A stretch of 64,000 bases of DNA from an uncultured bacterium (lineage in GTDB: Bacteria; Spirochaetota; UBA4802; UB4802). The DNA lies in assembly GCA_937920495.1 (NCBI GenBank), contig CALEUQ010000018.1:28436-92435 (forward strand), in the 5' to 3' direction. The notes under the pieces are model-generated. The model made no database searches, was not told the DNA's origin, and saw only the letters and a program-made list of their open reading frames with translations. This document shows, in pieces, positions 3,562 through 61,337 of this stretch. The translations under genes and the position numbers were made by a program. Position 1 is the stretch's first letter. Every line of letters starts with the position of its first letter.

Positions 3562-4637
3562 TGGGAGTTATAAAGAAACAAATACTCTTTATTATTAATG
3601 GTTCTATTGTGATTGTATTTTTATCAGTCATTACTATCTTTGCTACTGGCCAGATGAAATATGATAATCCTGGTCAGATTATACCTGTATTTTATACTCA
3701 AAATGATTATGTGGCATGGAAAGCGATAGTTAAGGGGAGAATCGTGAGCATCGGGGAAAGAGAAGATACGGCAAAACAGGAATTAACCCGTACAGTCCAA
3801 CCTAAAACAAAAATAAGTGTAAGGCTTTATAATACCGACGGAATACATAAAGGTACTACGTTATATGTAATAAATACAAATAATTTGATTGTATCACGTT
3901 TTACTGTAGAGAATATCTTCCGTTCACAATCATTTGGTGATATGCTGGTGGGATATGGATATTTCAGGTTGTCAACTATAGGTGATAGGGTTGTGCAGCG
4001 ATTTGAAGGAGCATATCCTGAATTTGCAAAGATACATAAAGCTCGCGGCGATTATTATAAAAATATGGGCGAATTTGGTAATGCTATTAAAGAATATAAT
4101 CAGGCAATCATTCTTGATGCCAATTATCCTGAGGCTCACATTGAGTTGGGTAAAATTTATTTTCATAATAATGTATTGCAATTTGCGTTCAATGAGTTTG
4201 AGCAGGCATATAAAAATAAAGACAGGATTGTTGATAAACAGGATGCTTTTGAGTTGTTATACTACATGGCAAAAACACGATATATTGAAGCGTATGAAAC
4301 CAACATCCCGGCAACACTAAAAGAAAAATATATTAAAGAGGGGCTTATATATACAAAAGAAGCATTAGCCATAATGCCAGATTCGGTTGAAGTTTTATAT
4401 ATGCGTGGTATCATGTGTTATAAAAATCATGATCCCGATGATGTTGCTGCCAGGAAGACATTTGAACAAATTATTGAGTTAGATCCAACGCATACAGGTG
4501 CTTACATTGCGTTGTCCGAATTATATTTAAAGCATAAGAATAAAAATAAGGCAAATTATTATTCAAAAAAAGCTCTTGAAGTTGATCCAGCAAATGAGCG
4601 TGCGCGATTTATATATAGAATGACAAAAGAAAAATAG
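3561..4637 (+). CDS. TPR repeat protein
   Basis: TM segment plus C-terminal TPR repeats (AIKEYNQAIILDANYPEAHIELGKIY). Confidence 0.8.
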   Translation: MGVIKKQILFIINGSIVIVFLSVITIFATGQMKYDNPGQIIPVFYTQNDYVAWKAIVKGRIVSIGEREDTAKQELTRTVQPKTKISVRLYNTDGIHKGTTLYVINTNNLIVSRFTVENIFRSQSFGDMLVGYGYFRLSTIGDRVVQRFEGAYPEFAKIHKARGDYYKNMGEFGNAIKEYNQAIILDANYPEAHIELGKIYFHNNVLQFAFNEFEQAYKNKDRIVDKQDAFELLYYMAKTRYIEAYETNIPATLKEKYIKEGLIYTKEALAIMPDSVEVLYMRGIMCYKNHDPDDVAARKTFEQIIELDPTHTGAYIALSELYLKHKNKNKANYYSKKALEVDPANERARFIYRMTKEK

Positions 4638-4766
4638 ACACGATAAGTATATATTACGTGTGATTCTCATTGAAATTCTATAAATACTGTAATTGTACTT
4701 GACTATAATAATTATTTATAAATATGCTATCTATCCTACATTACATTAACTTACAGGATACAAAGT

Positions 4767-5543
4767 ATGGTTGACTTCTTACAAAATGAAATATTACGTT
4801 CGCTATTACCTTTAATAATTATCAATTGTTTGGCGGTACTTTCTTTTTTTATCTTTTTGTTTATATATCCAAAAAAGCCCAAAGACCAGGAAATAATATC
4901 CCGAATGCATGAAACGTTTTTGGGGCTCATTTTTAGAGAATACTGGTATTGGGTTAATAAGCCTTTTTTTAATTTTTTCATATATTTTAAAATTAAACCT
5001 AATACCATAACGGCTATTTCACTCATACTGGCATTTATCAGTGCATACTTTTATTATCTTGGAAATTTTGGGCTGGCAGGATGGATACTCATTGTAAGTG
5101 CAACACTTGATATCGTAGATGGTCGTGTTGCCAGAATGACAAATACCGTAACAAAGTCGGGTGCATACTGGGATTCATGTGTTGATAGATATAGTGAGGG
5201 AGTAGTATTTTTAGGAATAGCGCTGTACTATCAGAATAACTTTATTGCATTACTTGCTACTATAGTAGCATTGATAGGATCTGAACTTGTAAGTTACACA
5301 AAAGCACGTGGTGAAGCGATAGGTATTACTACAAAACGCGGAATTATGCAACGTGCTGAGCGTTTATCTCTATTGTGCTTTGTTTCAGTATTGCATCCAT
5401 TCTTTCGGGTGATTTTCAAAAATACATCAGTAAATCCTGAAATAGTCATGATTGGTGCTATGATTCTAATGGCAGTTGCTACAAATTTAACTGCTGCAAC
5501 CAGAATGCGAATTATTTTCCAGGAGATTAAAAGAACCGAGTAA
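4767..5543 (+). CDS. CDP-alcohol phosphatidyltransferase family protein
   Basis: DIVDGRVARMTNTVTKSGAYWDSCVDRYSE matches D-G-AR...G...D...D signature. Confidence 0.9.
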   Translation: MVDFLQNEILRSLLPLIIINCLAVLSFFIFLFIYPKKPKDQEIISRMHETFLGLIFREYWYWVNKPFFNFFIYFKIKPNTITAISLILAFISAYFYYLGNFGLAGWILIVSATLDIVDGRVARMTNTVTKSGAYWDSCVDRYSEGVVFLGIALYYQNNFIALLATIVALIGSELVSYTKARGEAIGITTKRGIMQRAERLSLLCFVSVLHPFFRVIFKNTSVNPEIVMIGAMILMAVATNLTAATRMRIIFQEIKRTE

Positions 5544-5544
5544 A

Positions 5545-59807: not shown

Positions 59808-59839
59808 GTACAAAATAACCACTGTAAATACAATATATT

Positions 59840-61285
59840 ATGGAACTATCGCATAAAAAAACAGTATACCTTTTTGTAGCTATAGTTATTTCTTTAGCAA
59901 TAGGGTTGTTGCCACTTGAATATATTCAAAATTCCGGTAATCAAAGCATACAATTAACAACACAGGGTAAATATTCATTAGCAGTATTAGCGTTTTGTGT
60001 GATATGCTGGGTAGCTGAAATTATGCCATTTGCAATCACTGGATTGTTTTCGCTTTCATTACTTGTAGTAACAGGATGTGCAAATCTTTCTGATCTGGTA
60101 AAAGATGGCTTTGGTAATCAGGTGATAGTATTTTTTATTGGAGTTATGATTATTGGAGCAATAGTCAATGAAACATCATTTGTCACAATAATCACACAAA
60201 AACTTTACAATAAATATCATCTGCAACCTAAAACATTGATTTTCATTATCCTGACTATTGGCATGATTCTGGCTGGGTTTGTAACCGAAATGGCTGCTGC
60301 AGCTATGGTGTTGCCTTTTGCAGTCTCAATACTGAAACGTGCACATATACAACCATTGAAGGACAATTACGGAAAGGCAATGATGATTGCATGTGGATGG
60401 GGGCCGGTTATTGGTGGCATTGCAACACCAGCCGGATCAGGTGCAAATCCGCTGACAGTGGGATTTTTGAAAGATCTGGCACATATCGATATTTCATTTG
60501 CACAATGGATGGCCATAGGATTTCCAGCAGCACTATTGATGTTGCCATTTGCATGGTTTATTCTTGTAAAAACTTTTAAGATAGAGTCCGTTAGCCTTTG
60601 TAATGATCCCAAACAGAATGAAAAAGTACACATCACAATTAAAGATATCATCATTGGCGTTTTGTTTGTTGTCACAATAATGTTATGGATATTAGAACCT
60701 GTAGTGCATAATCTATTCCCATCTTTGCAGTTTATCACAATGTCATTTGTTGCTCTGACAATTGCCTGTTGTATGTTTTTACCGCCATTTGCACCTTTAA
60801 GCTGGCATAAGGTTGAACATTCTATAAACTGGGGTGCTATTATACTAATTGTATCGGGATTAGCATTGGGAACAACAATATACAAAACCGGTGCTGCAAA
60901 ATGGCTTGCGTGGATATTATTTAAAAACATTAATCTTTTACATCCGGTGGTTATGGTTTTTGCAGTGGTCCTTGGAGTTTCAATTATAAAAGTTATGTTT
61001 TCCAGCAATACGGTAACCGGTATCATTATGGTACCGTTACTCATAGCGTTATCCAGTACAATTGGCATTAATCCATCGCTTATTGCAATTCCTGCGGGCC
61101 TTACATCGTCACTTTCGTTTATATTAGTAACATCAACACCAACTATTGTGATACCGTATTCAGCAGGGTATTTTACAATTGCTGATATGGTAAAACCGGG
61201 TATATATATGACTATAATTTCATCTATTTGTGTTACTATCAGTTTTGTAGTTTTTGGTTCATTGTGTAAGATTATTGCGTGGTAA
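59840..61285 (+). CDS. DASS/SLC13 family anion transporter, candidate sulfonate transporter
   Basis: Multi-TM; WVAEIMPFAITGLFSL; MFSSNTVTGIIMVPLL; SLSFILVTSTPTIVIPYSAGYF. Confidence 0.85.
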   Translation: MELSHKKTVYLFVAIVISLAIGLLPLEYIQNSGNQSIQLTTQGKYSLAVLAFCVICWVAEIMPFAITGLFSLSLLVVTGCANLSDLVKDGFGNQVIVFFIGVMIIGAIVNETSFVTIITQKLYNKYHLQPKTLIFIILTIGMILAGFVTEMAAAAMVLPFAVSILKRAHIQPLKDNYGKAMMIACGWGPVIGGIATPAGSGANPLTVGFLKDLAHIDISFAQWMAIGFPAALLMLPFAWFILVKTFKIESVSLCNDPKQNEKVHITIKDIIIGVLFVVTIMLWILEPVVHNLFPSLQFITMSFVALTIACCMFLPPFAPLSWHKVEHSINWGAIILIVSGLALGTTIYKTGAAKWLAWILFKNINLLHPVVMVFAVVLGVSIIKVMFSSNTVTGIIMVPLLIALSSTIGINPSLIAIPAGLTSSLSFILVTSTPTIVIPYSAGYFTIADMVKPGIYMTIISSICVTISFVVFGSLCKIIAW

Positions 61286-61322
61286 ATAGTGCTACGTAAA
61301 CAATACAATTTTAAAATTATTT

Positions 61323-61337
61323 TGTGCGATAGTTACT
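61323..61337 (+). repeat. Dispersed motif TGTGCGATAGTTACT
   Basis: Exact 15-mer just upstream of the transketolase subunit. Confidence 0.8.

Follow-up and report, generated by a model that had tools for sequence, protein, structure and literature searches.

Self-recognition in DNA uptake is documented for the Pasteurellaceae and the Neisseriaceae, and biologists have long asked why it arose. The USS of Pasteurellaceae consists of AAGTGCGGT plus two downstream AT-rich segments, and the reader of the DUS is the minor pilin ComP. Among other dispersed signals, KOPS and matS motifs keep their sequence from family to family and show a strand or regional bias; Chi, a short site, is skewed along the direction of replication in the genomes known to date. 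In uptake sequences perfect copies outnumber singly mismatched ones, and the DUS comes without flanking motifs (PMC1626085); DUS dialects occur among related Neisseriaceae species (PMC3630211). HIP1 of cyanobacteria is palindromic, short and tied to methyltransferases (PMC4390886). In the literature we found no uptake sequence described for any spirochaete. Here we analyse the word GCGATAGTT in a stretch of 64,000 nucleotides from a member of the Spirochaetota (the window), in the assembly from which it derives and in related genomes.

The source assembly is a draft MAG of 3.02 Mb in 86 contigs; the relatives compared are likewise draft MAGs. GCGATAGTT occurs exactly 15 times in the window against 0.31 expected, a count matched by none of 100 shuffles. 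The initial annotation, made from the window alone, had put the chance expectation below one, as found here, and had listed 13 exact cores, all at correct positions, while overlooking those at 1686 and 6538 on the minus strand. Its four copies of the longer TGTGCGATAGTTACT were recovered exactly (7876+, 13944-, 30051+ and 61323+), and with up to three mismatches 18 are found where 1.8 are expected. In the complete assembly GCGATAGTT occurs 729 times, against 22.8 expected under an order-3 and 49.4 under an order-4 Markov model; this 15- to 32-fold enrichment lies mostly within coding DNA. It is the top over-represented 9-mer of the assembly, the top 8-mer being GCGATAGT. A genome-wide count near expectation and an enrichment of the window by local duplication, both raised by the initial annotation, are thereby ruled out.

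Sites were collected with an iterated weight matrix (span -14 to +36, 19.8 bits) at a cut-off of at least 13 bits. This resulted in 1,686 sites genome-wide, as compared to 78 in a reversed-genome control; the signal is one-directional (asymmetric), with about 1,600 copies. Sites follow one another at a mean distance of about 1.7-1.8 kb, and no stretch without a site exceeds 12.9 kb. The window contains 30 sites (Table 1). Among the single-mismatch relatives that had been proposed, those at 14022, 37490, 38080, 42950 and 63017 pass the matrix and those at 24001 and 46918 fail. Genome-wide there are 1,422 single-mismatch 9-mers (335 expected by chance, an excess of about 1,090) next to the 729 perfect copies. 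The motif is genuine and genome-wide. Rfam matches within the window were restricted to a single tRNA.

Table 1. Motif sites in the window, with scores from the genome-derived matrix (PWM). Exact cores are exact matches.
Core	Positions	Strand	PWM (bits)	Remark
exact core GCGATAGTT	1686..1694	-	21.9	
exact core GCGATAGTT	3723..3731	+	14.6	
exact core GCGATAGTT	6538..6546	-	25.3	
variant ACGATAGTA	6748..6756	+	19.0	
variant GCGATAGTA	7083..7091	-	20.4	
exact core GCGATAGTT	7879..7887	+	29.6	intergenic
exact core GCGATAGTT	13947..13955	-	24.8	intergenic
variant GAGATAGTT	14022..14030	+	21.9	intergenic
exact core GCGATAGTT	15318..15326	+	16.6	
variant TCGATAGTT	15369..15377	+	13.4	
variant GTGATAGTT	22559..22567	-	13.5	
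exact core GCGATAGTT	24032..24040	+	26.7	intergenic
exact core GCGATAGTT	24425..24433	+	18.7	
exact core GCGATAGTT	27079..27087	-	18.4	
exact core GCGATAGTT	30054..30062	+	27.9	
variant TCGATAGAA	31648..31656	-	14.1	
variant GTGATAGTT	37490..37498	+	14.7	
variant GAGATAGTT	38080..38088	-	16.1	
variant CAGATAGTT	41503..41511	-	13.9	
variant GCGATAGCT	41693..41701	-	18.3	form enriched in relative G005
variant ACGATAGTT	42950..42958	-	15.2	
variant TCGATAGTT	47617..47625	+	14.7	
variant TCGATAGCT	49204..49212	-	15.8	
exact core GCGATAGTT	52912..52920	-	22.7	
variant GCGATAGCT	54681..54689	+	20.1	
exact core GCGATAGTT	56310..56318	-	20.2	
exact core GCGATAGTT	57432..57440	-	29.9	
exact core GCGATAGTT	59844..59852	-	19.9	
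exact core GCGATAGTT	61326..61334	+	30.6	intergenic
variant GCGGTAGTT	63017..63025	+	16.2	

From 5' to 3', the consensus comprises a T-rich arm (-14 to -4), positions -2 and -1 occupied by G or T, the core GCGATAGTT, the tetranucleotide (A/C)C(T/C)G and an AAA triplet (+15 to +17), the triplet being one of two AT-rich flank segments (+15..17 and +33..35). Within the core GATAG is nearly invariant, the commonest variants being GCGATAGTA and GCGATAGCT, and the logo contains no palindrome. The AT/GC pattern of the flanks is seen at coding as well as intergenic sites and persists when sites are picked by the core alone. Further 3' a one-sided tail of low information extends to about +95. It is A/C-rich and G/T-poor: A peaks around +35, +52 and +82, C predominates around +42, +57 to +74 and +92, and no comparable signal is present upstream of about -20 to -40. 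The whole footprint thus runs from -14 to about +95, with A- and C-enriched segments that alternate about 18-20 nt apart. This period is near the pitch of the RecA filament, which may be coincidence. The tail was found by exploratory analysis and replicated in two of three sets of relatives: G003 and the set G001/G004/G005 show its C-over-G part (+54 to +74); G002, which is more diverged, does not. It is seen in random halves of the sites and in strong and weak sites alike, and does not stem from a repeat family, since just 9 of 1,651 tails have a partner with 60% identity.

Matrix sites are divided evenly over the strands (852/834) and cover the genome evenly, with near-random overall spacing, no large site-free regions, no local clustering and no heterogeneity among contigs (chi-square 60 on about 57 contigs). 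With respect to local GC skew the sites are unbiased: skew on the motif strand is -0.005 +/- 0.003 and 47% of the sites lie on the locally G-rich strand. The segregation motif that had been suggested is therefore disfavoured if of KOPS or matS type; a nucleoid-protein site, suggested as well, is conceivable. Identity with KOPS or Chi was rejected for lack of strand bias, identity with matS or parS for lack of regional clustering. Gene calls came from a home-made hexamer program; on these, the density of exact cores in intergenic DNA is twice that in coding DNA, and sites point either way with respect to genes. A frequent location near gene ends, as reported for the window, does not hold as a genome-wide rule, positions within genes being close to uniform. 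The use of several reading frames does hold: five of six are occupied, the sixth being empty because TAG would fall in frame. The proposal that selection acts on DNA rather than protein is borne out by the five frames, the occurrence on both strands and in intergenic and coding DNA, and synonymous conservation confined to the footprint. An RNA-level or terminator role was rejected, given both directions relative to genes and the lack of hairpin geometry.

Spacing does depend on relative orientation. Same-orientation pairs are down to roughly 0.6-0.8 of expectation at distances up to about 2 kb, whereas pairs in opposite orientation reach or exceed expectation. When orientation labels were permuted with positions fixed, same-orientation pairs gave z-scores, which treat sites as independent, of -4.9 (200-600 bp), -3.6 (600-1000 bp) and -3.9 (1000-2000 bp), with nothing clear beyond 2000 bp, and the +- and -+ arrangements were both raised. 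In the other genomes of the genus, 196 neighbours at 100-3200 bp have opposite and 113 the same orientation. Neither hairpin-forming pairs nor pairs at fixed spacing were found among the sites. The avoidance of same-orientation neighbours within about 2 kb suggests directional reading, on one strand or one flank.

The motif is restricted to a single genus. GCGATAGTTMC has 259-523 copies in each of the six genomes of the genus and 0-5 in other genomes of the order, so that the conservation in related genomes, put forward as a check by the initial annotation, extends to six of six. Across 401 Spirochaetota genomes, GCGATAGYTMC has 447-563 copies in these six and 0-22 in the other 395. No motif excess was seen in 18 + 7 genomes reached via loci of other groups, and the 400 kb of same-order genome G007 contained neither the motif nor a comparable word of its own. 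In line with the assignment to the Spirochaetota, three FlaB-like flagellins are present.

Alignments show how sites evolve. Exact in both genomes are 29 of 62 sites for G002 (74% identity) and 24 of 38 for G003 (80%), as compared to 8% and 17% of random 9-mers, respectively. Unshared sites mostly differ by substitutions and only few fall at alignment gaps (3/57 in G002, 2/30 in G003), hence new sites originate by point mutation. Identity at third codon positions is elevated up to about 30 bp from sites and not farther, and no divergence gradient that would mark preferential gene exchange exists beyond 30-60 bp. Depletion of sites in DNA that cannot be aligned to relatives was not clear, blastn alignability being a poor proxy at such divergence. 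The extended logo is identical in G002 and G003. In G005, the eighth core base is C in 216 of 475 GCGATAGYTMC copies (about 45%), leaving 259 GCGATAGTTMC, as compared to 40-69 of 447-563 (7-14%) in the other five species, which is a partial dialect shift. Taken together, the motif is a genus-restricted, asymmetric, DNA-selected signal that is maintained against mutation and obeys a strand-specific spacing rule.

The genomes were screened for competence and secretion machinery. ComEC is encoded by the genome of the window and by four of the five other genomes of the genus, and was not found in the draft assembly of G005. Homologues of E. coli DprA and ComM/YifB are clear. A single PF00437 ATPase passes the cut-off, namely GspE of the T2SS, hence no PilB or PilT motor was found by this search of the draft assemblies, and a convincing ComEA was not found in them either. 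The T2SS genes C to M, secretin included, are located at 38-49 kb of the window. A regular expression search yielded no pilin-like proteins besides those of the T2SS, and no ComP-like protein was identified. GspH was rejected as a FimT-like receptor, since it has no GRxR, the motif of DNA-binding FimT; it is the most diverged pilin of the T2SS cluster in G005 (76% vs 82-84%), a difference too weak for use. True loss of the T2SS from G002 was rejected: the essential LytB gene next to it is likewise missing there, which makes a gap in the assembly the most likely cause. Regular expressions also gave one type-I-like and one beta-class-like methyltransferase candidate.

The explanation we favour, to which we would give an even chance, is that the motif serves for recognition of self DNA in the manner of USS/DUS and evolved independently in one genus of Spirochaetota. 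A DNA-binding protein would read the core GCGATAGTT(A/C)C plus the one-sided tail and favour import or recombination of motif-bearing DNA. Tagged alleles would then be acquired preferentially, and sites would build up by molecular drive because cells take up such alleles in preference. A second site in the same direction nearby would be redundant or harmful. In favour are the abundance, the presence in six of six genomes of the genus, the conservation at DNA level, the origin by substitution, the unbiased placement on both strands, the AT-rich flank segments as in USS, the dialect, the ComEC/DprA/ComM set and the repulsion of neighbours, a trait in common with USS. Against it stand the failure to find PilB, PilT and ComEA, a looser consensus, the lack of hairpins, the orientation specificity of the repulsion and the lack of a divergence gradient, and further the T2SS proteins as the sole pilin-like ones recovered, the failure to find ComEC in G005, the missing GRxR of GspH and the want of a clear depletion in non-alignable DNA. 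To judge from sequence, USS/DUS appears to be the closest known kind, with most testable traits matching; we do not file the motif as a member, since a very strong consensus and hairpin pairs are missing and the usual pilus machinery was not found.

The orientation rule together with the one-sided tail suggests directional reading that would also fit a Chi-like or packaging signal. We consider it possible, with less confidence, that the motif belongs to a new kind of DNA-processing signal, directional and strand-specific: a polar site of about 110 bp whose A/C tail is periodic, which is read on one strand over a range of about 2 kb and spreads by biased gene exchange, in a genus apparently without canonical pilus uptake motors. 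Rather unlikely, in our estimate, is a binding site for a genus-specific chromosome-organising, condensation or anchoring protein, present in oriented form at about 1,600 places. The even cover, with neither contig heterogeneity nor large site-free regions, the long footprint of alternating A/C segments, a consensus as loose as that of an ordinary DNA-binding protein and the failure to find a canonical uptake motor or ComEA are all consistent with such a protein. However, the motif is genus-confined and unbiased, unlike KOPS or matS, the dialect shift in G005 fits a fast-coevolving recogniser better, and a 9-mer enriched to this extent in mostly coding DNA would impose an unusually large mutational burden. 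More doubtful again is a directional recombination or transfer signal other than uptake, either a Chi-like regulator or the pac-like packaging start of a gene-transfer agent. Against a Chi-like role, Chi is short and replication-biased, whereas here bias is absent and the footprint is near 100 bp. Biased transfer would propagate a site of this type as well, and its action would be confined to one flank or strand. The depletion confined to same-orientation pairs within 2 kb, with both opposite arrangements raised and replication in relatives, agrees with it, as do the one-sided A/C-rich, G/T-poor tail 3' of the core and the similarity of its period to the RecA filament pitch. Against the packaging variant, we know of no gene-transfer agent that uses dispersed pac sites.

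A methylation- or defence-related self mark, comparable to HIP1 with orphan methyltransferases, seems very improbable: methyltransferase sites are far shorter than this motif, which moreover is asymmetric, and HIP1 itself (GCGATCGC) was rejected, having 8 copies in the assembly where 10-18 are expected. The genome-wide abundance of one word is nonetheless HIP1-like, and the two methyltransferase candidates would suit such a mark. Finally, near-identical copies in the hundreds could be taken for a dispersed repeat or mobile element (REP, BIME or MITE type) or for local duplication. This we regard as negligible, since palindrome and local clustering are both lacking, sequence beyond the footprint is unrelated, and unshared sites align without gaps, which points to origin by substitution; a repeat family was rejected by the alignment-gap and tail tests.

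If the self-recognition reading is right, this independent case in a distant phylum would be a third origin of self-DNA recognition available for comparison. The strand-specific spacing offers a fresh way to study the reading and the accumulation of such signals. If the function differs, we found no counterpart in the literature for a polar signal with about 1,600 copies spread over the genome. Either function predicts a specific DNA-binding protein to be sought.

Comparison with known systems places the motif as follows. Its very high genome-wide abundance resembles that of HIP1. Like Chi and KOPS it is dispersed, DNA-selected and probably read directionally, but unlike Chi, KOPS and matS it is neither strand-biased nor region-confined. 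With DUS it shares a dispersed word with dialects among relatives, as in G005, and it differs from DUS by its flanking segments and in that no ComP-like protein was identified. As yardstick for USS a single genome was used, G700 (1.12 Mb covered), considered a Hin-type USS genome because of its 1,065 copies of AAAGTGCGGT. There, neighbours repel mostly in both orientations and below about 1 kb, 83 inverted pairs are spaced 15-30 bp apart and no sequence signal is left past about +30. In the spirochaete, by contrast, repulsion is found only between same-orientation sites, over 2 kb, hairpin pairs are lacking, no type IV pilus motors were found and the tail reaches about +95. The core is unrelated to that of USS, the AT segments are located at +15..17 and +33..35 rather than +11..15 and +23..27, a T-rich arm is added upstream, and the consensus is looser, with perfect copies (729) fewer than single-mismatch ones (1,422). 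What the motif has in common with USS is a 9-bp core with AT-rich segments downstream, hundreds to thousands of copies on both strands in coding and intergenic DNA, origin by point mutation, restriction to a family or genus, and neighbouring sites that repel each other, as in G700 and as described (PMC1626085).

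Only one pilin-type system, the type II secretion system (T2SS), was found in the window's genome, and a LytB-S1 fusion gene lies close to its cluster in the window. A similar stretch of ~52 nt, coding for the N-methylation segment, is common to all four pseudopilin genes, where it is seen as direct repeats.

Besides the main motif, a second word, GGGGTCAGAGC, is scattered genome-wide (for instance on contigs C1, C4, C28 and C84); it contains no palindrome, has no copies within the window, and its flanks are unrelated. Across the assembly GGGTCAGAGC was counted 186 times versus 1.1 expected. 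Cores of the main motif in the tandem array are spaced by 19 bp. The intergenic pair, 49 kb apart and 87-89% identical, may represent a promoter or regulator site that both places have in common.

Coordinates of the repeats and of the secretion cluster
Feature	Location	Strand
Two intergenic stretches, alike over ~57 nt	window 563-619 and 49987-50042	
Tandem array, four motif cores, same orientation	C39:32331-32397 (assembly contig)	
T2SS gene cluster, GspC-M like	window 38172-49429	-
Direct repeats in four pseudopilin genes	window 42097-43539	-
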